Assembly (NCBI GenBank): GCA_947175535.1
Contig: CAMWNF010000004.1
Span: 1 to 56,083 of the forward strand
Direction: 5' to 3'
DNA length: 56,083 bases
Source: an uncultured Bacteroidales bacterium
GTDB taxonomy: Bacteria; Bacteroidota; Bacteroidia; Bacteroidales; Muribaculaceae
This document shows, piece by piece, positions 25,498 through 44,478 of the stretch. The translations under genes and the position numbers were made by a program. The stretch's first letter is position 1, and each line of letters starts with the position of its first letter. The notes beneath the pieces were generated by a model, which worked only from the letters and a program-made list of their open reading frames with translations, searched no databases and had not been told where the DNA came from.

Positions 25498-26805
25498 ATG
25501 TTAAAAAAGTATCTGCTCCCGTTAGCAGCGTTTGCTCTACTGAGTTGCTCAGACAACAATGGCGGTTTTGTAGACGACAGTCCAATGCCACCACTACCTC
25601 CATCCCAATCCACAGTCAAAGATCCCAAGCCTAAGGCAATGTGGATAAGTGGTGCTTTCAATCTTCCAATGCTCAAGAACCGAGACCAGGTGGATAAATA
25701 TCTGGCTATGACCAAAGAGACCGGCATCACAATTCTGTATATGGATGCGAAGATTGCCGAAGGCACCACATTATGCCAGATTGAATCGCTCAAACAAAAC
25801 GCGGATATAGGCTACGATGTGGTTGAATATATCATGAGCAGATGTGACGAACTCGATATGCAGGTGATTATGGGCATGGATCCTCTGTGCGTAGGCAGTA
25901 CACAGCGACGCGTCGGTCCGGCTTACGAATCTGACCGCTGGGACGGCTACACTCAGTATAAGAAAGTGATGAGCGAAGATAGATCGAGCTATACAATCGT
26001 CGATATCCGCGACGATATCAATGCCGATGCCGCAGTGCTTGACCCTGCATTTCCGAAAGTAAGGGAATACTGCGCCGATATATGCGCTGAAGTCGTCGCA
26101 AAGTATAAGCACCACAAATCATTCCGCGGCATGAGCCTCGACTATGTGCGCTACTCCAACTCCGACCTTGCCGGGAATTGGTATGGCTACGGCGACAACT
26201 TCGTCAAGCAGTTTGAAACAGAAACAGGACTCAAAATAAAAGATCAAAACGACTTTATAAACGCCGACGGTGGTTTCGGCCAGTATTTTTCCGAATGGGT
26301 TTATTTCCGTACTAACGCCGTTTCGGAGACTATCCGTGCCATTAGCCGCAAGGTAAAGGAGATTGCTCCCGAATGTGAAATACATCTATGGGCATCGGCA
26401 CAATGGACATCACGCTACTCTGTCGGTCAGAATTGGGCGACGAAAAATTATGTACCCACCGGAATGCAGTATATCAAGGGATATGAAAATACAGGTTTTG
26501 CCGAAGATATCGACGTCTTTGTGCTCGGCGCCTACGCCTCTGATATTTTCATCGTTGACAATCCTAACAGTGATTGGACAGTCGAAAACTTCGTGACTAC
26601 CTACGCGCAATATATACCCAAGAACAGCTCGACAAAAGTATGGGGGTCGCTTCCTGCCTACGCTTATGACACAGCAAAGATGCGCGACGCCACCATTTTG
26701 TGTCTGGTTCATACCGACGGTCTGATGGTATTCGATCTCGGTCACGTGCGCAACCGCAATCTTTGGAGTGGCATCAAGGCTGGAATAACCACAAGCGGCT
26801 ATTGA
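25498..26805 (+). CDS. GHL10-type (family-10-like) glycosyl hydrolase lipoprotein
   Basis: The 435-residue protein begins with a lipoprotein signal (LLSCSD, Cys17), then a Pro-rich spacer (30-45). The catalytic-like TIM-barrel starts at KAMWISGAFN (46-55). GMSLDYVRYS (211-220) is the recognisable GHL10/DUF187 strand with its Asp-Tyr-x-Arg-Tyr, and IHLWASAQW follows. The SusC/SusD-adjacent position suggests a surface enzyme acting on a glycan, but GHL10 proteins lack a settled substrate. It is placed first in the locus, before SusC, 70 bp upstream. The enzyme class is moderately certain; the substrate is unknown. Confidence 0.75.
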   Translation: MLKKYLLPLAAFALLSCSDNNGGFVDDSPMPPLPPSQSTVKDPKPKAMWISGAFNLPMLKNRDQVDKYLAMTKETGITILYMDAKIAEGTTLCQIESLKQNADIGYDVVEYIMSRCDELDMQVIMGMDPLCVGSTQRRVGPAYESDRWDGYTQYKKVMSEDRSSYTIVDIRDDINADAAVLDPAFPKVREYCADICAEVVAKYKHHKSFRGMSLDYVRYSNSDLAGNWYGYGDNFVKQFETETGLKIKDQNDFINADGGFGQYFSEWVYFRTNAVSETIRAISRKVKEIAPECEIHLWASAQWTSRYSVGQNWATKNYVPTGMQYIKGYENTGFAEDIDVFVLGAYASDIFIVDNPNSDWTVENFVTTYAQYIPKNSSTKVWGSLPAYAYDTAKMRDATILCLVHTDGLMVFDLGHVRNRNLWSGIKAGITTSGY

Positions 26806-26875: not shown

Positions 26876-29800
26876 ATGATAAATAAATTTGCAAGTGCAT
26901 TAAGGCTGCTCTCATTCGTGATAATGGCTGCGTTAGCCTTGGATGTATCAGCCCAAACGATAGTCACCGGTACAGTGTGCGACAGCTCCGGCGAGACTAT
27001 GCCGGGAGTGAGTGTAGTGCTTAAGGGCAATCCGTCAGTGGCGACAGCCACAAATATTGATGGCAGATTTATGCTCAGAGTGCCTGACCTAAATTCAACA
27101 CTTCATGTTAGTTTTATAGGATACAAATCCCAGGATGTGAAACTCGATGGTCACTCAGACGTCGAGATAGTTCTCCACGAGGATTCGCAAATGCTCGACG
27201 AAGTCGTGGCTATCGGCTACGGTACAACAAAAAAGGTTTCATTGACCGGCTCTGTGTCGACAGTTACTTCTAAAGAGCTTGTTTCAGCACCGATGACCAA
27301 CACCTCGAATATGCTTACCGGTAAAATCGCTGGTCTCACCGCAGTCCAGTCGACCGGTCGTCCTGGTTCTGACCATTCGACAATCCACGTCCGCGGTCTC
27401 AATGACTTCGCCGCCAGCGGTCCGCTGTGTATCGTCGACGGTGTGCCTTCTTCAATGGACAATGTCAACCCGAACGATATCGAGAGTGTATCGGTGCTGA
27501 AAGACGCAGCCGCTGCCATCTATGGTGTGCAAGGTGCCAACGGTGTCATCCTGATAACCACGAAGAAAGGTTCTGAAGGCAAAGCCAAAATCAGCTACGA
27601 TGGTTCGTTCTCTTTTGTCAATAACACAGCTATGCCTGAATTGATGAACGCCCGTGAGTATATGTACTGGCACAACCGCGCAAGCGAAATGGATGGTTAT
27701 ACACCTCGTTATACAGCTGACATCCAGCAGCAGGTGATGGAAAACGCCCCGGGTACCATATACGGTGAAACCAATTGGCAGGATAAGCTCTGGCGTACGG
27801 CTTTCACCCAGAAACACAACATCAGCGCATCAGGTGGTACACAAAGGGCTACTTATTATGTAAGTCTTGGTATCCTTGACCAGGAAGGTACGATGCGGCG
27901 CACCGAATACCGCCGCTACAACCTGCGCGCCAACATCGATATGTCAGTTGCCAAAGGTCTCCGATTTACAGCCAATATTTCCGGCTACAAAGCTGAAAAC
28001 TATGGACCAGGCTTCGACCTCGGTAATACTTACGCATGGAATCCGGCTTTCGAAGCTACCCATGCATTGCCTATATATAAATCGACATATGATGGCTATC
28101 CTCTTGCCCAGACCACAGGCGGCGACGGACAATTCAATGTCGGCGCATCAATCGAAAATTCCGGTTGGCAACGCAACTATAACAATCAGGTAACATCCAA
28201 TCTCAAACTCGAATACAGTTTCGGGGAACTCACACCTGTCCTCAAAGGGTTGAAGGTCAGTGTATGGGGTTCATACTACTACGGAAACACAAAAATCCGC
28301 AACTTTATGAACTCCTATGAACAGATGGTCATCAACAGCATCACGCCGGGAGAGCCTGTGCTTACACGCAAATCCGGTACTACCGAAGGAGGAGCATTCC
28401 TTAAATTCCTTCAGGTGAACGACGGTTGGATCTTGCGCCCGCAGATTGACTACAGCCGCAAATTCGGCAAACACACTGTTTCGGCGTTATATGTCTACGA
28501 AGCTCAAAAAAATAGCAGCGACGGAATGCAAGGCGAGGCAAACCAATTTGCTGCGACCGATCCTATCGACCTCAGTCTTGGTGTAGAGATACCCGGTCGT
28601 CTCGTCGGCAAATATGGATATTCCTCAATTGTTTAGCATATCGGTCGGCTGAGCGATGATTTAGATAATAAATATCTTATTGACCTCTCGTTCCGCTACG
28701 ATGGTTCTTACAAGTTCGCGCCCGAAAACCGTTGGGGCTTCTTCCCCTCTGTATCGGCGGGGTGGGTGATAAGTTCCGAATCATTCCTGTCAGAGAACGC
28801 CCCCTGGATTGACTTCCTTAAGTTGCGTGCGAGCTGGGGTAAATCAGGCAAGGACAATATCGAAGCATTCCTCTACAACGCCACCTTTAAGACGGCCCAG
28901 AACAGCATCATCTTCGGCGACACGGTTTATAAGAACTACTACACCGACTCCTATCTCCAGCGCAACCTGAAATGGAGTACGACTGAGTCCTACAACATTG
29001 GTCTTGATTTCGATATATTAAGACGTAAATTCGGAGCCGAAATAGATGTATTCTATCAATACACCGCCAATCTGCTGGAAAGCGTCGGTGGCGAATACGC
29101 CCCATCACTCGGCGGTACGCACCCTAAACAAGGCAACACCGGCAGTATGGATAACCGTGGTATCGATTTCACCCTCAAACATCAGCTCACCGTCAACAAG
29201 GATTTCAGTTACCGTCTGCGAGGCACCTTCGGCTTTGCCCGTAACAAGGTGCTGAAACGCAATCTCACCCCAAGCTATCCAACATCACTTCAGCCTCGTA
29301 TCGGACAACCTTTGGGCGTGCGCTACGGTCTCAAATCTGACGGTTTATATCGCACGGAAGAGCAACTTATCAACGCTCCGCGTCTCGACGGCACGTCCTG
29401 GCACGCAAGTTCGACAGGACCGCGTTTGGGCGACATCCGTTATGTCGATATCAACGGCGACGGTCGTATCAATTTCGTAGACAATAACAATGAGGTGCTC
29501 GATATGATACGCATCGGTTATGGCACAATGCCCGAAATATCCTTCTCTCTTAATGCCGATTTCTACTATAAGAACTTCTATCTCAACATGCTTTGGCAAG
29601 GTGTAAGCCACTGCGACTATATGCTCGGCGGCAACGATAGTTACAAGTGGGTTGTCGGCACGATGCTCAACACAGCCTTTGATCAAAACGGTAACGGCGT
29701 GAAATATGTTGCCGAAAACAGCTGGACACCCGAGAATCCCAATGCCAAATACCCGCGTCTTACCACAGGCTCTGGAGGTAACAACATTCTCATTTCTGAC

Positions 29801-30034
29801 TTCTGGATGGTCAACGGCGAGTATCTACGTCTCAAAAATCTGACCTTCGGCTACAATGTCCCCGAAACAGTGCTCCGCAAGACCCCGTTCACAGGCATAA
29901 ATGTCTATGTTGCAGGTGCCAACTTGCTGACATTCAGCCATCATAAATATGTTGACCCTGAGACTCCATCAGCGACCTTCAACCTATATCCGCAACAACG
30001 CACATGGACGCTTGGTCTTAATGTTTCATTCTAA
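26876..30034 (+). pseudogene. SusC/RagA-family TonB-linked outer-membrane transporter interrupted by an in-frame TAG
   Basis: Read through position 28634-28636, the frame gives about 1,051 residues, a normal SusC length. It has a signal peptide (ending VSAQ), a CarboxypepD_reg-like domain (TGTVCDSSGETMPGVSVVLKG), a TonB-box-like LDEVVAIGYGTTKK, and a plug with IHVRGLNDF, then PLCIVDGVP and ITTKKGS. The barrel ends TLGLNVSF. A TAG codon after YGYSSIV truncates it at 586 residues. The same frame then continues HIGRLSDDLDNKY and FRYDGSYKFAPENRWGFFPSVSAGW, standard SusC sequence, with no other stop to 30034. It could be a fresh nonsense allele, a sequence error or a readthrough site. A GTG at 28766 is not a credible independent start because the fragment would begin inside the barrel. 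Six other genes here end in TAG, so the codon is a normal stop. Confidence 0.85.
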
Positions 30035-30051: not shown

Positions 30052-31722
30052 ATGAACAAGACAATCAAATATATCGCAGCAGCAACCGCCATAGTCATGG
30101 CTACAAGCTCATGCAATGATGTCCTCGACATCAATGACACCTCGACGTTCGGTGATCTCGCTGTCTGGAGTAGCCAGGACAACGCCGACGCATACGTCAC
30201 GGCAGCCTACAAGTCATTCAACGACCAGTCGATTGTCGCAAACCGCGACAAATTCTATGACAACTACAGCGACATTATGAAAAGTCCGTATTGGTGGATT
30301 GGCACCTATAACCGCGCACTTTTCGAGCAAAGCCGATTCGGTAAAGGCAATGCCGACCTCTTCGACTGTTGGACGGCTGTTTATGGTCGCATCAAACGCA
30401 CCAACGCGATGCTCAACGACCTTGAGCGTTACGGTCACAAATGGGGCGACGAATGGTATGATATCCGTCGTGCCGAAGGTCGTTTCTGCAATGCCATAAA
30501 CTATTTTTACTTGGCAAGAGTCTATGGCGGCGTCGTGCTCCGCACCGACCATTCGGGTGGCGGCGGATGGCTCGATGATGGTGCCTACGAGCAGGACCGC
30601 AATCGCGCCCGCATCTCTGAAGAAGCCACCTACGAGTATATACTCAACGAACTTAAGGATGTAGCGAAAGTTCTCCCCGAGAAATGGCCGGCAGCTTGGA
30701 CCGGACGCGCCACAAAAGGGATGGCATATGCTTTCATCTCACGTATCGCATTATATGCCAAAAATTGGGAACTCGCCGTATCGGCAGCCGACGAATGCGC
30801 TAAGTACTATTCACTCGTCCCTGACTATGCCAAGCTCTTCGATGTCAGCTCCGATCAGGACAACAGTAAGGAGATTATTTTTGGTATTCGTTTCCAGAAA
30901 AATGTCCTCACAAATGGTTTCGATACCGATTACCGTCCATTTGGCGACCGATCTGTCTACGGAAACCAGGTGCTTGCCAACTCACAGCCGACAGCAGAAC
31001 TTGTCGATATGTATGAATTCAAAGACGGCACGGAGTTTGACTGGAATACTTACTCAACCAATCACGCTGACCCATACACCGACCGTGAACCACGCTTCCA
31101 TGCTACCGTACTCTACAACGGTGCGAAATGGGAAGGTCGTACTATTGAGACTTTTGAAGGCGGCTCTGATTCATTCCGCTCGTTCTCAATCTCCGAGGAT
31201 GCCGATGGTCATACTGTGACAGGCTACTATCTCCGCAAATATCTTCAGGAAGGCAACTCGACATTCCCCACCGAGGGCAGCTACAACACCGATATAATCA
31301 TCCGCTATGCCGAGGTTCTTTTGAATAAGGCAGAAGCCCTTGCGCAGCTCAATAAGTTATCTGATGCGATGGAGCCGTTGAACGAAGTGCGACGACGGGT
31401 CAATCTTCCCGCCCGTACCTTCACTGCCGCCATGTCGCTTGACGATTTTATGACCATTCTCCGTAAGGAACGTTGTGTCGAACTCGCCGGCGAAGGCCAT
31501 CGCATTTGGGATCTCCGCCGCTGGCGCATGGCTGAAGGCGTGATTAACGGAAAGAACGTACATGGCCATAAAGCCACACGCAACGGAACTTCCTTTGAAT
31601 ACACCACTGTCGATGCCGATGGAGGTCGTCAACGCATCTTCCTTCCTCACTATTATTATCTGTCTCTGCCATCCGGCGAAGTATCGCAAAATTCGCTTTG
31701 CGTTGATAACCCAGGTTGGTAA
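30052..31722 (+). CDS. SusD/RagB-family surface glycan-binding lipoprotein
   Basis: The 556-residue lipoprotein (lipobox ATSSCND, Cys21) forms the lid over the SusC barrel at the cell surface. N-terminal LDINDTSTFGD, TPR-like helices with YKSFNDQSI, IKRTNAMLND and AEGRFCNAINYFYLARVYGGV (a conserved SusD segment), and a C-terminal EVLLNKAEALAQL, LNEVRRRVNLP and IRKERCVELAGEGHR-like stretch (here LRKERCVELAGEGHRIWDL) are diagnostic. It starts 17 bp after the SusC stop. The gene is intact although its SusC partner is interrupted. Confidence 0.93.
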   Translation: MNKTIKYIAAATAIVMATSSCNDVLDINDTSTFGDLAVWSSQDNADAYVTAAYKSFNDQSIVANRDKFYDNYSDIMKSPYWWIGTYNRALFEQSRFGKGNADLFDCWTAVYGRIKRTNAMLNDLERYGHKWGDEWYDIRRAEGRFCNAINYFYLARVYGGVVLRTDHSGGGGWLDDGAYEQDRNRARISEEATYEYILNELKDVAKVLPEKWPAAWTGRATKGMAYAFISRIALYAKNWELAVSAADECAKYYSLVPDYAKLFDVSSDQDNSKEIIFGIRFQKNVLTNGFDTDYRPFGDRSVYGNQVLANSQPTAELVDMYEFKDGTEFDWNTYSTNHADPYTDREPRFHATVLYNGAKWEGRTIETFEGGSDSFRSFSISEDADGHTVTGYYLRKYLQEGNSTFPTEGSYNTDIIIRYAEVLLNKAEALAQLNKLSDAMEPLNEVRRRVNLPARTFTAAMSLDDFMTILRKERCVELAGEGHRIWDLRRWRMAEGVINGKNVHGHKATRNGTSFEYTTVDADGGRQRIFLPHYYYLSLPSGEVSQNSLCVDNPGW

Positions 31723-31757: not shown

Positions 31758-32204
31758 ATGAAAAATATAATCAAAATAACTCTTAAAGCGGCTGCGGTGT
31801 TGTTAGTCAACTCAGTGTTAGGTTCTTGTCACGAAGCTGATCTCGAGTTTGCCCATAATGACAATCTCATCCACCAGTTGTCGATGATGAAATCCGCCCA
31901 GCAGGACACTCCCATATATTTCACTATCACCGAATATGATGGCGATGGTAATGAAATCACAGGCGATATCACACCCGAGAATGTGGCGGGCGGCTACGGT
32001 ATGGCGTGCGTTCACGTTCCCTTCAATCTGTACGACGAAGTAGACCTGCATAAGGTATATCTCTCGGCACAAGTGACCTATGATGCTATAATCACACCCG
32101 GTCTCACCGGTCTGCACGATATAACGGGTGAAGGCATTGTAGTCAGTGTCCGCGCCGGCAACGGTAAAACGCGTAAATATAGAATCTACGGTCAATTTGA
32201 TTAA
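31758..32204 (+). CDS. Small lipoprotein of the polysaccharide locus, SusE/F-like position
   Basis: The 148-residue protein has a lipoprotein signal (VLGSCHE, Cys24) and a single predicted beta-rich domain (about 50-148) ending VSVRAGNGKTRKYRIYG. Its end resembles the N-terminal domain end of the next gene (TITSGDGKHQQVYTVNLG), which suggests both share a fold of immunoglobulin-like type. I do not recognise the family firmly. Position after SusD suggests a surface glycan-binding or assembly role. The next gene follows 11 bp later. Confidence 0.6.
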   Translation: MKNIIKITLKAAAVLLVNSVLGSCHEADLEFAHNDNLIHQLSMMKSAQQDTPIYFTITEYDGDGNEITGDITPENVAGGYGMACVHVPFNLYDEVDLHKVYLSAQVTYDAIITPGLTGLHDITGEGIVVSVRAGNGKTRKYRIYGQFD

Positions 32205-32215
32205 ATCTGTCGTTT

Positions 32216-33742
32216 ATGAAATACTATAAATATTTAGCTTCGATTATAGTCTTGGCGGCGGCCACACAGTTTATTGCCTGTGATGACTACGACTATGACA
32301 AAGAGATGGCTCGTACGGATCTCACCGGCAGTTTCTCGGTCAAGGGTGCGACCGGCAACATATACAAAGCCGGTATCAACGGTAATGAAATAACAGTCAA
32401 GGTCAATCCTTTTGCCGACGTGCAAAACGAACTTTCATGTGCTTATCCCATATTCTATCTCCCTATGGGTGCAACATGCTCACCATCTCCTCTTGAACCT
32501 CAGGATTTCACCAAGGAAGTGAAATACACCATCACTTCAGGCGATGGCAAACATCAGCAGGTCTATACGGTCAATCTTGGCGCAAGTGACCTGCTTCCGG
32601 AGGGTGAAGGTTACTCGCTGTCACGTCTTCAAGCCGAAAAATTATACTTCGAACTCGGCTATCCAGGCAAGGCGGCAACCGGTGAGATTGACAATGACCC
32701 CAACGGTGACTTACTCTTCTTCCCGGCATTCTGTGATGACCGTCTGGTTGGTTTCTCACGAGTATATGCTTGGGGCAATACCAACGGTCGCAATATAGTG
32801 CCTGACCACAGCCTCGCATTCAAAATATGGGATGCTGCCACTCTTGAGCCCACTGGCGAGACCCTTAATCTCGGTTCTCTCAGTCCTTCGGACATCGTCA
32901 ATATAACTAACGACTGGAAAGGTCACCTCATAGCAGCGACAGGCGGTCTATCAGGAAAGACCAGCGATATATATTACTGGACTTCACTCTCATCTGCTCC
33001 TGTCAAGGTTGGCACATTGCCTCAACCGGTCTACACAAATAGCCATGAGGTTGATGCCAGCATGTTTATTCAGGTCGCCGGTGATATCACAGCCGATGCA
33101 GTCGTCACCTATATGCCGACCAAAACATCAACAGGCGAACATGTAGCAGTCAGCATCACTGCCGGCAGTATCACGGACTCACGCATCATCTCTACCGGCT
33201 ATCCGTCTAATGACAAGGCTTGGTTCCAGATGATATCGCTTTTCGGTACTGACAACAACGCGCCTATCCTTGTTGGAGACACGGAGGGCGAGGGCAACGG
33301 CTCAATACATGCATATCTTCTTAATGGTTCAGGTTCACTGCTGTCAGTAATGCCGGCTCATCTCAACGGTCGCGAAATGAGTGATGGAATCACATGGTGG
33401 TCGGGCACAGGTAACTCGTCGCTCCGTGGAGGCGCACGCCTGCCTTTTGTCATGGCAATGATGATTAACGGCAAGCCATACAGTCTCGTGCTCACCGGCT
33501 ATCACTGGCGTGCAAAAGCATCGATGATGAGCCAGGATTTGGTGACATATATCGACGATGATCTCAGCTACGACTTCTGTCGCTATGAGATGAGTCTACT
33601 TGGTGCCTCCGGTGGGGACTTCCAGATGACATACGGAGGTGCCGGATGTTGGTATTGGGACGAAGAGAACCACATAGGACGCATTGCTATCTGGTATGGA
33701 CGTGAGGGTCTCGCCACATTCATGGTCAGCAACTACGAATAG
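32216..33742 (+). CDS. DUF5018-like surface lipoprotein of the polysaccharide locus
   Basis: The 508-residue protein has lipobox QFIACDD (Cys22). An N-terminal beta domain (about 35-125, ending TSGDGKHQQVYTVNLG) and a long C-terminal region (about 130-508) rich in Gly, Asp and aromatic residues follow, reading like a beta-propeller or similar repeat fold (FFPAFCDDRLVGFSRVYAW, KGHLIAATGGLSG). This resembles DUF5018 proteins of Bacteroidales; no catalytic motif is apparent. As last gene of the locus it probably acts as a surface glycan-binding protein. It is followed by a strong hairpin. Confidence 0.6.
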   Translation: MKYYKYLASIIVLAAATQFIACDDYDYDKEMARTDLTGSFSVKGATGNIYKAGINGNEITVKVNPFADVQNELSCAYPIFYLPMGATCSPSPLEPQDFTKEVKYTITSGDGKHQQVYTVNLGASDLLPEGEGYSLSRLQAEKLYFELGYPGKAATGEIDNDPNGDLLFFPAFCDDRLVGFSRVYAWGNTNGRNIVPDHSLAFKIWDAATLEPTGETLNLGSLSPSDIVNITNDWKGHLIAATGGLSGKTSDIYYWTSLSSAPVKVGTLPQPVYTNSHEVDASMFIQVAGDITADAVVTYMPTKTSTGEHVAVSITAGSITDSRIISTGYPSNDKAWFQMISLFGTDNNAPILVGDTEGEGNGSIHAYLLNGSGSLLSVMPAHLNGREMSDGITWWSGTGNSSLRGGARLPFVMAMMINGKPYSLVLTGYHWRAKASMMSQDLVTYIDDDLSYDFCRYEMSLLGASGGDFQMTYGGAGCWYWDEENHIGRIAIWYGREGLATFMVSNYE

Positions 33743-36423: not shown

Positions 36424-39400
36424 TTACTGTATTAGCGGGTTGGATGGGTGTGCGATGGAATCTGGAATAACTATTGCGTTTTGCGGGGAAACTGAATCCG
36501 GATTGATTGTGACCGTATGATGTTTTTTTCGACGAAGAAAGCCGAAGAAATCGTCGAAGTCTTTCTTGAATACAAGTCCTACACCCTGAGTGGTCTGCGC
36601 CGTACGCACATAATAATTTTGGTCGTTATACCTGTTATAAGCTTTCAGACGCCATGAGCCTTTAGGGTTAAGTAAGTATTCAACATCAAAATCCCCGATA
36701 AACTGATTGGTGTTAAGGGTCTTATCTCGATATCCGAAGTTTCCGTTAAATAATAGACGGTTATTAAGCAGTCGGCTTGACAACGCTACATCAACTTCCA
36801 CATCTGAAAAATCGCCACGGTCACTTCTGAGGTTAGGCGCAATGCTCCAGTCGTCGCTCAATTTTCCGAGCATGCTGCTCAACTGGCTTGAAATGGTAGA
36901 TGAGGCTACGGAGAAGAGCTCATTACCTTTAGTGGTCGACGCCATATAATCAGGAGTGTAGAATCTGTTAAGTGCAAGAAGATAGATTATCTGACGGTTC
37001 ATCATCTCCTTTGTGCTGACTATACTGCGAACCTTTCTATATGTGTCCTGGGTAAGGGTCGGGAATTCAAGGTCAAAATCAATATCAGGCTGTCGCATAT
37101 CTCCGGTTACTTTCAGAAGTGCGTGCACAGGAACATTAGTTCGGTTAAGGTCTTTGTCGAGGAGAAATGATTCATCAAGGTCACTAAGATTCGCGTTTAC
37201 AGCATATATGGCTTCGATATCGAGCTGAGCAGAATATGGGTCGCCATGAAAAGCGATACTACTTCCTTCTTTAATAGTGAAGTCCTTGATGATGATATCC
37301 TGAAGCGTGAAATTATAGCTGCCATGATTGAGCGTGTATGTACCATACATCTTCAAATCATTGTTGAGAGAACCGTAGGTCATGCGTAGGTTGCCCGCGC
37401 CTGTAGCCTTGATTTCATCGCCGCTTACAGGGTCCATAACCAAAGTTATACGGGCTTCGGGTGTAACTCCTATCTGTAAATCCATGTTGTATGCGGAAGT
37501 GGAGTTGTTATTTTCAACACCAAGCCGTTCACGTAATAGTCTGACAACAGTCGGAACATTGTCTGCTTTCATCAGTGAATCACGTCTTGCTTCCGCCCGG
37601 CTGTCCTTAAATGTTATGAATGAGTATTCATCTGCGTCAAGACGATCAGACAACACAAATGTAAAAGACGATTTAGGTGCGGTCGACATATTCACTCCAA
37701 TGTTCACCACTCCGGGTTCACCCGTGATGGTAGCACCGCCATTCCCATATATAGTTCCGTACCAGTCAGGACTTAAACGGGAGTCGACATCATAGCTTAG
37801 GAAATCATGTGCATCTGAAACAGTAAAATTAAATGATGGTTCTTTGAAAAAAGTATGGCGGACTACACCGTTAAGCATAGCCGTATTGCCATTAATATCT
37901 CTGATTGTAACGTTGTCAACATCAATAATGCCAGGTCTTAATCTTATACTATCCGAGGCTGAATACCATGTATTTGTAAATGCTATCTTGATATTTAGAT
38001 TATCGGCGAAGACATCACCTTCAAGGTCTATATACTTGAAGGTTCCGAACAGTCGGGCTTTACCGGATGCAAAACCATTAAGGTCGGATGCAAATGCTTC
38101 CATGAAAGGTTTCATAAATCCGACAGGAATATGATTGGCATCGAAATTAATATCCAGAGCTTCTCCTGCAGGATATATATCACCTTTAATATACGAATGG
38201 AGCCCGCCATTTCCGATGACATCTGCATCGAGATAAAACGATTTTTTATCGTTATCCCATTTGGCTTTTATGTCTGCATCTCCAAGTACACAACGGTTAT
38301 AGCTGATATTGTCGACATGAAGATTGTCAGAATATATCATCGGTTGAGAAGAGAGTAGGGCATTTCCTGAGAAATCGCCGGTAGCAATTCCACCGATTAG
38401 AGCCTTGTCTATTTCAAGAGTCTCGAATATATCGAGTAACGCTATTTTTGATAGACTTATATGTATCGAGTCATCGGGAGAATCAGAGACAACACCGTTG
38501 ATTGCAATTGCTTTGTCTTCAGATGTCAATGCAAAATTCTGTATTTCATATTTATTTTGTGATAGACTGATTGTTGACGGATTTATCGACCAAATATCAT
38601 TGCCGAAATTGATAGTGCCCGGATGGAACGTTATAGACGTGGTCAGGGTATTATCGAAATTTCGGAAAAGATTGGTAGTGAAGTTAAACGAACCGTTAAT
38701 CGGAATTTTACGGTCAATATTCCATTTGATATTGTTATCAATTCTATTAGAAGAAGCAGTAAGTTCGGCGAAAGCGGTCATCGGTCCTTTTTTTGTCGGC
38801 ATTTTTGTGGTGAAGTTTACCGATGCGCTATTACGACTGCCTTTCATCTCCGCATTCAAAGTCGTGTTTTCGATTATCTTATCACCCTGTAAAATATATG
38901 GTGCGTTGAGTGTAAGCGACGCCGAACTATTTATTTCCGATATATGTCCGTCTAATTCTATAGGATAGATTACAGATATGGGAAGATTGAAAAACTTGCA
39001 TAAATTCTCACACTCATTGATATCGATGTGGTAAGTGAAATTATTAGTTAAAAGTTTGGAGCGAGTTTGTATTGGTTGTTGCCGTACAGAAGATTTTATA
39101 GAAGGAAAAATCATCTCTGCCATATCCTTTAAGTCGGAATATAGGCTGGTGAAGCGGTAGTTGCCATCTAATGTGGCATTTATAAAATCGGATTGAATGG
39201 TAAGAGCGGGGGCATCATCAACCGGCGCGCTTTCTATAGTGAAAGATTTAATTGTTAAATCGGGAGTTGCCGGTTTGTCATCGATAAAATCTAAATCAGT
39301 CAAAGTAAGATAACCGGTGATATCGTCAAGTGAAGAAAATTCTATATTTGAGGATAGGACTGCTTTTAGATTATAGTCCCGGTAGTTATCGATGAGCAAT

Positions 39401-41022
39401 AGTTTTTCCGGAGAGAAATTTTCAACATCTACAGATGCCGAGATGTGTTTCATTTCGGGTGTCAACTCAGCATTCCACTCTGATATAATAGTCGCCATCG
39501 GGTCAAGAACACATAGATCAAGCTCAAGCGTTTTATCCACCATCTCCAATGTGGCGGTAATAGGGCTATAGCGGTGTCCCATGAAATCGACTGAAGCAGA
39601 ATCTACGCTCAGCGTTAGCATGGGTTTTATATTTCCATAACGACCTTCGGCTCGTAGGTTTGCTTCCAAAGCAGAAGGTCCTTTATCCCCAAGCAATGAT
39701 TTTAAGTTCTTACACTCAATCTTACTTTCGGCTGAAAAGTTGACAATATGAAATGTGTCGTCAGTATTATAATGAGCGGTAAGTTGGACTGCATTATCAG
39801 CCAATGATATACGTGCATCAATTTTGGATTCGTTAATTTTTCCTGCTGCAGTTATGGAGGTAGAGAACGTATCGTTATCCCGCATCTTTGCTATTATATT
39901 TTCAACCGTTTTGTCATCTGTACCGCCAAAAAGGGAGCATAGTGAACTAATGCCACATTTATCAGATGAAAATCTAAGGTAATCGAGAGTGTAAGACGCA
40001 TCCACGCCTTTTTTCAGGTCACTTACCGAACCTGCTAAAGTCACTACAAAATTTCCTTTTGTCTGAGTGAGTGTCAAAGGTGATATTGTGGCATTTTCAC
40101 TTGAAATTGAACCTGCTAAAATTACGTCTATTGAATCCTTCACCCCAGTCAATGGAGGAAAAAAAGCTGAAAAATCAGGTGGATATATTACACTGCCCTG
40201 ATTTATACCAATACTTATTCCTTCGTTTTTGTATATATCCTCTAATCCTGAAAATCCTTGATTTTCAAGTGATATAGGAGCAAGTGAAACTTCAGAATGC
40301 GGTAATCTTATGTTTAGATATTCAAGTTCCGACCCCTGCGGTGTGATATGAGCTGCCGCTGTTAAATCAGAGAGGGTAAAACCATTTTGCTCGGTCAACG
40401 AAAAACGGTCAATTTCCACTCTGTATTCGTCATTAGAAATGCGAGGAATATATGCGTGCAACAATACATCATGAACATAAATATGAGAGGGGTCGAATAT
40501 ACTGTCGCGATAAGGCTTATCAAGGACATCGAAACGCATGCATCCTTTTCTGATTATAACCGTGTTGACCATTAGGTCATAATGCGACTGCGGACGTGTA
40601 GGACGGTCTGATTTGAGATTGTCAATTATATTTGCAATGTTGAGTGGTGAATCGGAATTTGTTTTGTACAAAATTAAATCAGGTCCTTCGACCAAAGCAT
40701 AATTTACAACGAGCCTCCCTGTGCGTAAAAGATAAAAAAGCTCAAAACCGACACTTATCCTGTCTATACGCAATGCTGTGCGTCCGAAGTCATCAAGAGC
40801 TTCGACATCATGAATTGATAATTCGTGAAAAGGATGGATTTCTATACGGCCAAGGGTGACATCGGTTCCTAATAGAGCTGAAAGTTCGCTTGATGCAACA
40901 CGTCGGATATCATTCTGCGCCCATTCGGTAGAGAGTATAATATAGAGACTGACCGGAACTGCGATCAGTACAAAAACCAACGCCAAAACGAAGGTACGGA
41001 ATATTTTCCATGCCTTTTTCAT
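36424..41022 (-). CDS. tamB: TamB-family (AsmA-like) intermembrane protein
   Basis: The 1,532-residue protein has one N-terminal membrane anchor (about 10-30) and a very long beta-rich periplasmic region of AsmA-like/TamB type. The C-terminal TamB/DUF490 domain (about 1150-1490) includes FTLQDIIIKDFTIKEGS, MRQPDIDFDLEFP and YLLALNRF. TamB-like proteins bridge inner and outer membranes for phospholipid transport and outer-membrane protein assembly. No tamA (Omp85) gene adjoins it. Only a near-match -7 element (TAACTTCG, minus strand 41033-41040) is seen upstream. Confidence 0.9.
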   Translation of the reverse strand: MKKAWKIFRTFVLALVFVLIAVPVSLYIILSTEWAQNDIRRVASSELSALLGTDVTLGRIEIHPFHELSIHDVEALDDFGRTALRIDRISVGFELFYLLRTGRLVVNYALVEGPDLILYKTNSDSPLNIANIIDNLKSDRPTRPQSHYDLMVNTVIIRKGCMRFDVLDKPYRDSIFDPSHIYVHDVLLHAYIPRISNDEYRVEIDRFSLTEQNGFTLSDLTAAAHITPQGSELEYLNIRLPHSEVSLAPISLENQGFSGLEDIYKNEGISIGINQGSVIYPPDFSAFFPPLTGVKDSIDVILAGSISSENATISPLTLTQTKGNFVVTLAGSVSDLKKGVDASYTLDYLRFSSDKCGISSLCSLFGGTDDKTVENIIAKMRDNDTFSTSITAAGKINESKIDARISLADNAVQLTAHYNTDDTFHIVNFSAESKIECKNLKSLLGDKGPSALEANLRAEGRYGNIKPMLTLSVDSASVDFMGHRYSPITATLEMVDKTLELDLCVLDPMATIISEWNAELTPEMKHISASVDVENFSPEKLLLIDNYRDYNLKAVLSSNIEFSSLDDITGYLTLTDLDFIDDKPATPDLTIKSFTIESAPVDDAPALTIQSDFINATLDGNYRFTSLYSDLKDMAEMIFPSIKSSVRQQPIQTRSKLLTNNFTYHIDINECENLCKFFNLPISVIYPIELDGHISEINSSASLTLNAPYILQGDKIIENTTLNAEMKGSRNSASVNFTTKMPTKKGPMTAFAELTASSNRIDNNIKWNIDRKIPINGSFNFTTNLFRNFDNTLTTSITFHPGTINFGNDIWSINPSTISLSQNKYEIQNFALTSEDKAIAINGVVSDSPDDSIHISLSKIALLDIFETLEIDKALIGGIATGDFSGNALLSSQPMIYSDNLHVDNISYNRCVLGDADIKAKWDNDKKSFYLDADVIGNGGLHSYIKGDIYPAGEALDINFDANHIPVGFMKPFMEAFASDLNGFASGKARLFGTFKYIDLEGDVFADNLNIKIAFTNTWYSASDSIRLRPGIIDVDNVTIRDINGNTAMLNGVVRHTFFKEPSFNFTVSDAHDFLSYDVDSRLSPDWYGTIYGNGGATITGEPGVVNIGVNMSTAPKSSFTFVLSDRLDADEYSFITFKDSRAEARRDSLMKADNVPTVVRLLRERLGVENNNSTSAYNMDLQIGVTPEARITLVMDPVSGDEIKATGAGNLRMTYGSLNNDLKMYGTYTLNHGSYNFTLQDIIIKDFTIKEGSSIAFHGDPYSAQLDIEAIYAVNANLSDLDESFLLDKDLNRTNVPVHALLKVTGDMRQPDIDFDLEFPTLTQDTYRKVRSIVSTKEMMNRQIIYLLALNRFYTPDYMASTTKGNELFSVASSTISSQLSSMLGKLSDDWSIAPNLRSDRGDFSDVEVDVALSSRLLNNRLLFNGNFGYRDKTLNTNQFIGDFDVEYLLNPKGSWRLKAYNRYNDQNYYVRTAQTTQGVGLVFKKDFDDFFGFLRRKKHHTVTINPDSVSPQNAIVIPDSIAHPSNPLIQ

Positions 41023-41091
41023 AAAGGTATTGCGAAGTTAGCGAATCTTTTCATAATAAGCATGGTGACGCAGGATATTATTATAATAAAA

Positions 41092-41118
41092 AAGAAGCCG
41101 ACTGTAAGTCGGCTTCTT
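41092..41118 (-). terminator. Terminator of the exbB-exbD-exbD-tonB operon
   Basis: A 12 bp perfect stem with 3 nt loop lies 33 bp after the tonB stop. On the minus strand it is followed by a T run (TTTTTTATTA). The core GAAGCCGAC also occurs in the mutB terminator. Confidence 0.88.
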
Positions 41119-41150
41119 CATGTGGAAGGGATATGGAATTCAAAAGCGAA

Positions 41151-42008
41151 TTACTGCTGGAGTTTGAATGTAACGGGGAGGGTGTAAGTAACCTTTACAG
41201 GATTACTGTTGTTACGTCCCGGATTCCATTTCGGCATTGCTTTGACAACGCGAACAGCTTCTTTATCAAGAGCGGGGTGACGACCGCGGAGCACGCGTAC
41301 GTTTTCAACCGCACCGGTCTTAGAAACGATGAATTCCACGATAACTTTACCCTGTACACCTTCTTCTGCTGCAACTGCGGGATAGTTGATGTGGTCGCTG
41401 AGCCATTTGTACATGGCCTGTGTACCACCGGGGAATTCAGGCTGCTGTTCAATCATAGCCATGTTGTAGACTTTGTCGTCTTCAACCGGTTTTTCTTCAG
41501 CGATAACCTGGTCGATAATACGAGTCTTATTCAAGTCGTCAACACCTTCTGTCACGTCAACAGTACCAAGCATAGCTTCGTTGTTCATGACATCTTCCTG
41601 GTTCTTAACCTGCTTGTCTTCTTCGAAGTTTTCATCCTCAGTTACAAGGATGGCAGTAACCTGCTGCTCGTTAGCGACTTCTTCGGGAGCTATGATTTCT
41701 TCGGGTTCGGGAGGAAGTTCAAACTGTTCTTCTTCCTCGATTTCCTCTTCATATTCGTCCTCAATAGCCGTGAGTTCGACTTCTGTGTTGACAAATATCT
41801 GCTCTTCTTCAGGTGAGCCGAATGCTCCGTTATAGAAAAGAGCGAGAAGTACAAGTCCTACGATTGCTACTGCAAGTACGATTACAATAGCTTTTGTGTG
41901 GCGTCGAACAGAATCGGCGCGGAGTGTGTAAGCACCGAATTCTTTATTCTTACCTTCGAATACTATATCGCGCCACTCTTTTGATGAAAGATCTACGTCT
42001 TTTGCCAT
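41151..42008 (-). CDS. tonB: TonB energy-transducing protein
   Basis: The 285-residue protein has a 39-residue cytoplasmic N-terminus, a membrane helix (about 40-60) and an acid/Pro-rich periplasmic region (about 66-112, EEIEEEEQFELPPEPEE). The C-terminal TonB fold (about 195-285) includes PEFPGGTQAMYKWL, YPAVAAEEGVQGKVIV and MPKWNPGR. It couples proton flow through ExbB/ExbD to outer-membrane receptors, including the TonB-dependent receptors in this window. The PEFPGG start is characteristic of Bacteroidota TonB. It is last in the operon, 20 bp after exbD. Confidence 0.93.
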   Translation of the reverse strand: MAKDVDLSSKEWRDIVFEGKNKEFGAYTLRADSVRRHTKAIVIVLAVAIVGLVLLALFYNGAFGSPEEEQIFVNTEVELTAIEDEYEEEIEEEEQFELPPEPEEIIAPEEVANEQQVTAILVTEDENFEEDKQVKNQEDVMNNEAMLGTVDVTEGVDDLNKTRIIDQVIAEEKPVEDDKVYNMAMIEQQPEFPGGTQAMYKWLSDHINYPAVAAEEGVQGKVIVEFIVSKTGAVENVRVLRGRHPALDKEAVRVVKAMPKWNPGRNNSNPVKVTYTLPVTFKLQQ

Positions 42009-42028
42009 TTTAATTAACTTTTAATGGG

Positions 42029-42778
42029 TTACTGATTTGAAGTCTTTCGCACCAATGGGCGGATGATAGTCTCGTTATTAGTCTGTTCGTAGTGACGAAG
42101 CAGAACAGTGTCTGTGTGGGTCGGAAGCTCGATGCTGTAACGTGAAATCTGGTTGATGTTCATTTCGTCGATAGCATTGATAAGACCTTCGTATGTGGTG
42201 TTGGGACCGGGTTTGATCACAACTACAGGACGGACTTTGTTAGAGTCAGCAGCATTTTTCTTAGCTGCTTTGTCAAACTCGTCTTTTGTAATCTCCTTGT
42301 TTTTCCACTGAGTCTTGAGCTTCTCGTATTCAGCCATAACGGCTTCGTTCTTTCCACGAAGGATTTTACGGATACCTTGAGGCTGACGGTTCTGATTGCC
42401 GATGAACTGTTCCTTTGTGAGGTATTTGCTCGTTGAGAAAGTAGTGTCCGCCACACCTTCATAATAGTAGATGTTGTGGATAGTCTTTCCGGTTTCGGCA
42501 TCAACTGCGGGTTTATCACCGTTATACTCTGTATCAAGAATCATTGTGAGTGCTTCAGAAGCCTTAGCCTGATTCTGCTGCTCTTTCTTGACATCTTCGT
42601 TAGTCGGGAGGACAATCTGAAGAGTCTGAGACTTAATCATTGTTGTACAGAGCATGAAGAAGGTGATCAGAAGCATGTTCATATCCACCATGGGGGTAAA
42701 GTCCACATGGATAGACATCTTCTTTTGGGCGCCTTTTTTCTTTTTGCCGCCTTTGTCGGATTGTTCTATTTGTGCCAT
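42029..42778 (-). CDS. exbD: ExbD-family biopolymer transporter (proximal to tonB)
   Basis: The 249-residue protein has a Lys-rich N-terminus and one membrane helix with the proton-carrying Asp32 in VDFTPMVDMNMLLITFF. The periplasmic C-terminal domain ends IDEMNINQISRYSIE. It is much longer than E. coli ExbD (141) because of a charged insertion of about 100 residues (roughly 75-185) between helix and the conserved C-terminal part. It works with ExbB as TonB's motor. It lies 13 bp after the other exbD gene. Confidence 0.92.
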   Translation of the reverse strand: MAQIEQSDKGGKKKKGAQKKMSIHVDFTPMVDMNMLLITFFMLCTTMIKSQTLQIVLPTNEDVKKEQQNQAKASEALTMILDTEYNGDKPAVDAETGKTIHNIYYYEGVADTTFSTSKYLTKEQFIGNQNRQPQGIRKILRGKNEAVMAEYEKLKTQWKNKEITKDEFDKAAKKNAADSNKVRPVVVIKPGPNTTYEGLINAIDEMNINQISRYSIELPTHTDTVLLRHYEQTNNETIIRPLVRKTSNQ

Positions 42779-42791
42779 ATTACTTTACCAA

Positions 42792-43604
42792 TTATTGAGT
42801 GGGTTCATCTTCTGATTTAAGCGCAGTCATAAGACTGAACTTGTTGAGTTTCATTGTCTGGAGGTTATCAAAGACACGCTGCACGGTTGTGAAAGGAGTG
42901 TCTTTATCCGCCTTAATGGCAATACCCTGACCTTTACGCATAAGAGCCGTGTAAAGGTTAGAGAGGTTAGCGCGCTCTTCCGCTGTAAGCTTTTCGCCCT
43001 GTTCGCGGTTAATTGTCTGAGCTACGTTGTAAATAGCCTTAAGCCAAACCTGAAAATCATTATAGTTACCGTTGTAATCCTTGTTGTCGTTGATAGGTAT
43101 ACCAACTTTAGGATTTGCCATATCACCCTGGAATTTGTCGCGTTCGTTAGGCGTCATCGAGAGAAGATTAGGCAATTCGGTGAACGGTACGCCAAACATG
43201 TTAGTCTGACCAAACACAGCTTTTTGAGCCGGGGTCAAATGGACTTGAGCGTTCTTATGCTGTTCGTTGTAGATGTTAAGTGCTTCATCGAGCATCATAA
43301 GGCGAATTTTTTCGCTTGACAGAGTCGAGTCGGCATCACCCGTAAACGAGATGAAGATTTTACCTTCGAGCAGACTGGGGTCCTCATATTTGCCTGACTT
43401 GTCGGCAGACGAGACGAGAACTGTAACGACGTTGTTCATCGGCACTTTTTCTTCTGATACAGAAGACGGAGTGTAGACAATTGTCGGTTCCTTCTGAAGG
43501 AAGGTTGAAGTCAACATGAAGAAAGTAAGCAAAAGAACGGTCACGTCACTCATCGCGGTCATGTCGATGAGCGTACTCTTTCTTTTAATTTTTACTTTTC
43601 CCAT
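42792..43604 (-). CDS. exbD: ExbD-family biopolymer transporter (proximal to exbB)
   Basis: The 270-residue protein resembles the neighbouring ExbD. Its basic N-terminus is KVKIKRKSTLIDMTAMSD with Asp20 as the conserved acidic residue at the start of the membrane helix (TVLLLTFFML), and a large periplasmic region follows. The C-terminal KADKDTPFTTVQRVFDNLQTMKLNKF is the ExbD beta domain. Two unequal ExbD genes in tandem are usual in Bacteroidota, perhaps forming a heterodimer in the ExbB pore. Gap to exbB is 49 bp. Confidence 0.9.
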   Translation of the reverse strand: MGKVKIKRKSTLIDMTAMSDVTVLLLTFFMLTSTFLQKEPTIVYTPSSVSEEKVPMNNVVTVLVSSADKSGKYEDPSLLEGKIFISFTGDADSTLSSEKIRLMMLDEALNIYNEQHKNAQVHLTPAQKAVFGQTNMFGVPFTELPNLLSMTPNERDKFQGDMANPKVGIPINDNKDYNGNYNDFQVWLKAIYNVAQTINREQGEKLTAEERANLSNLYTALMRKGQGIAIKADKDTPFTTVQRVFDNLQTMKLNKFSLMTALKSEDEPTQ

Positions 43605-43653
43605 ATTTACCTGTTGTTAATTGTTGATAATTATAACTCTGGAAAATAAGGGA

Positions 43654-44478
43654 TTAGTGAGTTGCTGCAAATGTCTGCACGATAGAGAAACCGATTTCGT
43701 CGATTGCGTAAGTGAGGTTGTCGATTTTGTTAGTGTAGAAGTTGTAGAAAATTACAGCGAATGCACCGGTTGCGATACCGAAGGCGGTGTTGATAAGTGC
43801 CTCGGAAATACCGGTAGAAAGTTCGGTTGAGTCGGGAGCACCTGACTGAGCAAGAGCCTGGAATGATTTGATCATACCCATCACAGTACCGAGAAGACCA
43901 ACGAGAGTACCGAGGGTTGTCATTGTAGCGACGATGGGGAGGTTCTGCTGAAGAGCAGGCATTTCGAGAGCGGTAGCTTCTTCAACTTCTTTCTGAAGAG
44001 TAGCGATTTTCTGTTCTTTGGTGAGGACTGTGTTAGCGTCCATTTCCTGGTAACGAACGAGAGCTGCAGCTACAACGGCAGCAACAGAACCTTTCTGCTG
44101 TTTGCAGAGAGCCTGCGCACCTGCGATGTCGTTTTTAGCAAGGCAAGCCTTAACACCGCTGACAAATTTAGCGATATTGCCTTTACCTTTAGCAGCACTG
44201 AGGGCGATACCACGTTCGATAGCGAGGACGATTACAGTGAGGAAGAGGGTTTGAAGAACAGGCACGATGAAACCACCTTTGTAGATAGTACCCCAGAGGT
44301 TCTGCGGATGACCGTCTTCGTCGAAGTGCATGTCATTACCGAACCAGAAGATGAAGAGGAGGATAGCGACGCAAGCGCACACTATAATCACCCAAGATGC
44401 ATTCTTGATACCGGGAACATTTTTCTTGTTGTCCTTGGCTGCGGGAGCGGCCTGAACGTTTGGCTTTTGAGCTTCCAT
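43654..44478 (-). CDS. exbB: MotA/TolQ/ExbB proton-channel protein
   Basis: The 274-residue inner-membrane protein is the stator of the TonB motor. Hydrophobic helices are at about 28-48 and 70-93, and two conserved ones cover TMTTLGTLVGLLGTVMGMI and ISEALINTAFGIATGAFAVIFYNF, the ExbB/TolQ core. It is first gene in the operon and has an exact -7 element about 210 bp upstream, leaving a leader of about 200 nt. N-terminal Pro/Ala-rich cytosolic tail is short. Confidence 0.93.
   Translation of the reverse strand: MEAQKPNVQAAPAAKDNKKNVPGIKNASWVIIVCACVAILLFIFWFGNDMHFDEDGHPQNLWGTIYKGGFIVPVLQTLFLTVIVLAIERGIALSAAKGKGNIAKFVSGVKACLAKNDIAGAQALCKQQKGSVAAVVAAALVRYQEMDANTVLTKEQKIATLQKEVEEATALEMPALQQNLPIVATMTTLGTLVGLLGTVMGMIKSFQALAQSGAPDSTELSTGISEALINTAFGIATGAFAVIFYNFYTNKIDNLTYAIDEIGFSIVQTFAATH

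Follow-up and report, generated by a model that had tools for sequence, protein, structure and literature searches.

The closest described parallel to the gene studied here comes from Bacteroides fragilis evolving within people (data of Zhao et al. 2019, as treated in PMC11379459 and PMC9393564), where nonsense changes arise in long-conserved genes of a gut Bacteroidales. According to the excerpt of PMC11379459, 28 of 325 nonsynonymous within-host mutations are premature stops, which is above expectation (p = 0.015), and the same text proposes, as an illustration, that phages drive the loss of a receptor and that reversion follows later. In the excerpt of PMC9393564, 16 genes show parallel evolution and 6 of these belong to the SusC/D family; the pressure in that set reaches SusC/D importers, and our gene too is a SusC. 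However, the B. fragilis set consists of many isolates sampled within people, with a stop in SusC itself unstated in these excerpts, whereas our gene comes from one assembly. A second parallel is genetic code 15 of crAss-like phages, in which TAG is read as glutamine (PMC9523058, in excerpt), and which shares with our case a TAG lying within a reading frame of gut metagenome sequence. Unlike those phages, our sequence has an isolated TAG, in a bacterial gene and at a serine column, together with TAG-ended genes and prfA. The excerpted part of PMC11633381 treats engineered stops only. In a literature search on nonsense mutation, readthrough and within-host change in SusC, Bacteroides and Muribaculaceae, no listed title or abstract opening concerned this locus.

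The window, that is the whole stretch of 56,083 nucleotides that was analysed, is one entire contig (C4) of a 2.56 Mb assembly in 184 contigs that is 91.26% complete, and among its named relatives the closest are MAGs that go under the labels Muribaculaceae and uncultured Bacteroidales. Retranslation of its susC-like gene (Table 1) bore out the preliminary description, which had reported a single in-frame TAG followed by about 465 further codons in the same frame: the frame runs for 586 codons, meets the TAG at codon 587, where the continuous frame expected for a whole barrel is broken, and then extends for 465 codons to a terminal TAA at 30032-30034. The 5' and 3' pieces match positions 3-515 and 541-981 of the TIGR04056 (SusC/RagA) model, each scoring above the curated cut-off, and the earlier statement that SusC barrel sequence follows directly after the TAG agrees with this match of the 3' piece to the adjoining part of the model. 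Given that SusC homology continues across it, the 465-codon extension is not a chance open frame. When the product is read with X at the stop, carboxypeptidase-regulatory-like and plug domains are present, and the closest solved chains in a sequence search are SusC homologs (for example 8aa4_A, E = 7e-120). Judged by score and domains, the predicted product is a SusC/RagA TonB-linked outer membrane protein. The genes of the locus are arranged in the order GHL10, susC, susD, 148-aa gene and 508-aa gene, with susC alone lacking an open frame; the frames of GHL10, of SusD and of the next two genes downstream were found open, consistent with the description of these neighbors as intact.

Table 1. 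Positions of the susC-like gene, its in-frame stop and the neighboring genes in the window
Feature	Positions	Strand	Basis
GHL10 family protein gene, open frame, upstream of susC	25498..26805	+	domain match
susC-like gene (SusC/RagA TonB-dependent transporter), split by one in-frame TAG	26876..30034	+	translation, TIGR04056
5' piece, 586 aa: carboxypeptidase-regulatory-like domain, plug, first part of barrel	26876..28633	+	domain matches, TIGR04056
In-frame TAG, residue 587; serine (TCN) in 13 aligned relatives	28634..28636	+	translation, alignment
3' piece, 465 aa: remaining barrel, open to normal end	28637..30034	+	translation, TIGR04056
susD-like gene, open frame	30052..31722	+	domain match
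148-aa locus protein; beside susCD in L039, L040, L041 and the C23 locus	31758..32204	+	
508-aa locus protein, partial DUF5018 match	32216..33742	+	domain match, neighborhood comparison

The codon found at this place in close relatives, a comparison that the preliminary description had proposed, is a serine codon (TCN) in every one of the 13 that were aligned. These relatives are 48-80% identical to the window gene and comprise 12 distinct sequences (L010 and L040 share their coding sequence), the nearest being L039 (79.9%) and L010 (79.6%). In a wider alignment of 42 SusC proteins, which takes in paralogs, this column holds S in 23, G in 16, N in 2 and A in 1, and a stop was seen in none of the 13 relatives and none of the 42 proteins. 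One base change from a serine codon would suffice to give TAG, and the codon of L039 is itself one base away from it. An indel at the TAG was rejected: the alignment to the 13 relatives is ungapped over the 44 columns that follow it, and the earlier gaps are confined to a variable loop. Viral contigs were also searched for the sequence around the TAG, allowing any letter at one base of the stop codon, and gave 0 matches. Among the sequences compared, the TAG is private to the window's assembly.

Apart from the TAG, the gene bears no mark of decay, as neither a second stop nor a frameshift was found in it. Nei-Gojobori dN/dS ratios, which are rough with synonymous sites near saturation, stand at 0.069 before the TAG and 0.068 after it for the window against L039, at 0.065 and 0.040 against L040, and at 0.124 and 0.090 for the open pair L039-L040. 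The window protein has 42 lineage-unique residues (26 before the TAG, 15 after, plus the stop itself) against 43 in L039 and 34 in L040, with no clear excess of lineage-specific changes over these two. A gene long free of constraint should show such an excess; the TAG is therefore either young relative to the split from these relatives or an error.

Our leading reading, held at even odds, is that an ordinary SusC/SusD polysaccharide-utilisation locus has recently acquired a nonsense allele by a change of one base. The stop falls where homologs have sense codons and the rest of the gene is intact, which is the pattern expected of such an allele. Within the part that encodes the barrel, a single base change would have turned a serine codon into TAG; RF1 should terminate there, and the truncated product, which has the plug but an incomplete barrel, should not form a working outer-membrane transporter. 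Provided that the base is real and termination efficient, function would be lost, import by this locus would be off in the sampled strain, and drift or selection (by diet, phage or immunity) could have raised the TAG. The codon itself most likely does nothing beyond ending translation inside the barrel. The genome keeps a relative of this locus in which the frames, susCD included, are open: contig C23 (L098, 2445-9472) carries it with the same gene order, its products being 53-55% (SusC), 49% (SusD), 36% (small protein) and 30% (last protein) identical to those of the window locus, and it is a possible partial substitute for the interrupted one. If the base is real, the gene is a further example of a SusC importer lost recently in a gut Bacteroidales. 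What stands against a real allele is that the TAG is known as one base in the consensus of one assembly.

The strongest competing account, which we place somewhat short of even, is that the true codon is sense and that the TAG was introduced by a wrong base call or by the mixing of strains in an assembly of metagenome type. The TAG being the sole fault of an otherwise intact and conserved gene is in keeping with this, as is the division of the assembly into its 184 contigs, while the other 11 SusC genes above the cut-off in the window genome, as well as its gyrA, are free of stops and count against it. To place the stop rate in context, TIGR04056 was searched over 49 genomes of the genus, and one stop was found in 3 of the 150 matches listed, these being the best-scoring ones: the window TAG, a TGA in G300 and a TGA in G128. 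Within the window genome a stop is present in 1 of the 12 SusC genes above the cut-off. In the same 49 genomes, the complete lists for three control genes, whose rows include fragments, gave stops in 0 of 36 rows for rpoB, 1 of 34 for rpoC and 0 of 46 for gyrA. In rpoC the stop is an interior TAA of G140 (L099, contig C36), flanked in the same frame by 1158 codons upstream and 281 downstream; given that rpoC should be essential, it is most simply an assembly error, and it documents that such faults occur in this group of genomes. The point estimate is higher in SusC (3/150 matches listed) than in the three controls together (1/116), which would count against error, but the difference is not significant (Fisher P = 0.63), and this comparison weakened the case for an excess of stops in SusC over the controls. 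An rpoB family control with 0 stops among its best 150 rows looked clean, but it was set aside as biased, as it spans a narrow score range and other genomes. With 1 of 116 control rows affected, assembly error alone may give stops at a similar rate, and a sizeable share of the single stops in SusC can be put down to error. As the SusC rate is not clearly above that of the control genes, the real allele and the consensus error come out nearly even. If error is the answer, the case is a caution to anyone who would take single stops in metagenome assemblies for switches, given that even the rpoC of a related assembly has one.

A protein search over 297 genomes drew in two further SusC stops, an interior TGA in G155 and a TAA in G076 (L097), the latter sitting upstream of the likely start and hence excluded from the interior stops. 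We noted that the genes of G300 (L094), G128 (L095) and G155 (L096), all SusC genes of the genus or family, each have a single interior TGA in a frame that is open otherwise. These three stops align to window residues 898, 412 and 775, respectively, and a conserved or hot-spot stop was rejected, as they fall at positions unrelated to that of the TAG.

The residues just downstream of the stop also bear on the quality of the consensus. Over 28655-28687 (SusC residues 594-604), three changes, all less than 18 residues past the stop, are seen at columns conserved in other SusC proteins: residue 594 is D in the window (Y in 34 of the others, F in 5 and L in 3), residue 596 is L (Y in 20, F in 12, W in 9 and L in 1) and residue 604 is L (F in 28, V in 10, A in 3 and G in 1). 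Five lineage-unique changes lie within 20 residues of the stop (P = 0.018), a post hoc test that serves as a lead only. In a sliding profile score the region of the TAG was unremarkable, the interval at 577 scoring 1.9 where permutation puts the 95% level at 6.9, and the maximum (9.5) lay at the N-terminus. The cluster may reflect poor local consensus or relaxed constraint; the former could explain it, given that relaxed constraint is not expected to act only there, and to that extent this post hoc cluster of unusual changes favors an error.

As a special case of the nonsense allele, the loss could be adaptive and reversible, for instance with a phage that uses SusC selecting the stop and reversion following later. 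We consider this unlikely. The model and the B. fragilis data in the excerpt of PMC11379459, the within-person parallel evolution of the SusC/D family reported in that of PMC9393564 and the lack of decay in susC itself are all in its favor. However, the TTA+TCA excess by which the excerpted PMC11379459 recognizes past reversions is missing from the SusC genes here: these codons make up 13.5% in 12 SusC genes versus 16.9% in 39 other genes of the window, a deficit rather than an excess (P = 0.002). Selection and reversion are thus unproven for the window susC. Less probable again is the fuller version, in which the TAG would be a genuine, segregating off-state, gaining ground under local pressure (from a phage, for example) and reverting by mutation; were it true, Muribaculaceae importers would switch by point mutation and reversion, and not by DNA inversion or readthrough.

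We give very little credence to a transporter kept in two forms by readthrough of the TAG, whether low-level or regulated, or by its suppression. The frame and its conservation are kept after the TAG, though this is equally expected of a young stop. The base following the TAG is C, and termination before such a +4 C is inefficient, especially for UGA, according to the excerpt of PMC5289835; yet TAG followed by C ends 3 of the 9 TAG-ended ORFs of the window (susC included). Programmed readthrough would call for a conserved stop and a stimulatory element after it. The stop is absent from every aligned relative and every SusC protein compared, and the 100 nt after the TAG fold no better than shuffled sequences (z = -0.09). 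A CTA anticodon was found in 0 of the 27 tRNA genes detected in the incomplete genome, for which tRNA genes for Asp, Ile, Trp, Tyr and Val were also not found. At the threshold applied, the window genome (G000) matched neither rpoB nor rpoC either, so absences from it weigh little. Of the three options in the preliminary description, the recent nonsense allele and the sequence error both fit, and the readthrough or suppression switch lacks specific support, given the unconserved and structureless stop, the lack of a suppressor among the tRNA genes found and the placement of other interior SusC stops elsewhere. Recoding of the whole genome, which had been called unlikely from TAG ending at least six other genes, is indeed unlikely and was set aside, given that the 43 ORFs of the window (a greedy set, of which a few may not be genes) end in TAA 24 times, TGA 10 times and TAG 9 times, susC included, and that prfA is present in the genome with a match above the cut-off.

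The surroundings of susC are those of a recurrent gene cluster. The order susC, susD, 148-aa gene and 508-aa homolog is common to L039, L040 and Bacteroides bouchesdurhonensis (L041). L039 (Muribaculaceae bacterium RGIG8639, water deer caecum) and L040 (uncultured Bacteroidales bacterium SRR15730559_bin.35) resemble the window in having the susC-susD-148-aa order, a downstream homolog of the 508-aa protein and a SusC 80% identical to that of the window; in L040 the closest such homolog sits past a second copy and a GHL10 gene. Both differ from the window in their serine codon at the TAG column and in having no GHL10 match upstream within 8 kb. In L011 (G019) a GHL10 gene precedes susC, as in the window. 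GHL10-like genes occupy varying places around the susCD core, being upstream in the window and L011 (5049-6158), downstream in L040 (14894-16165) and on both sides in L041 (6766-7923 and 14965-16245). Elsewhere in the window, a TamB-like gene lies on the minus strand at 36424-44478, with an ExbB-like gene and two ExbD-like genes not far off.
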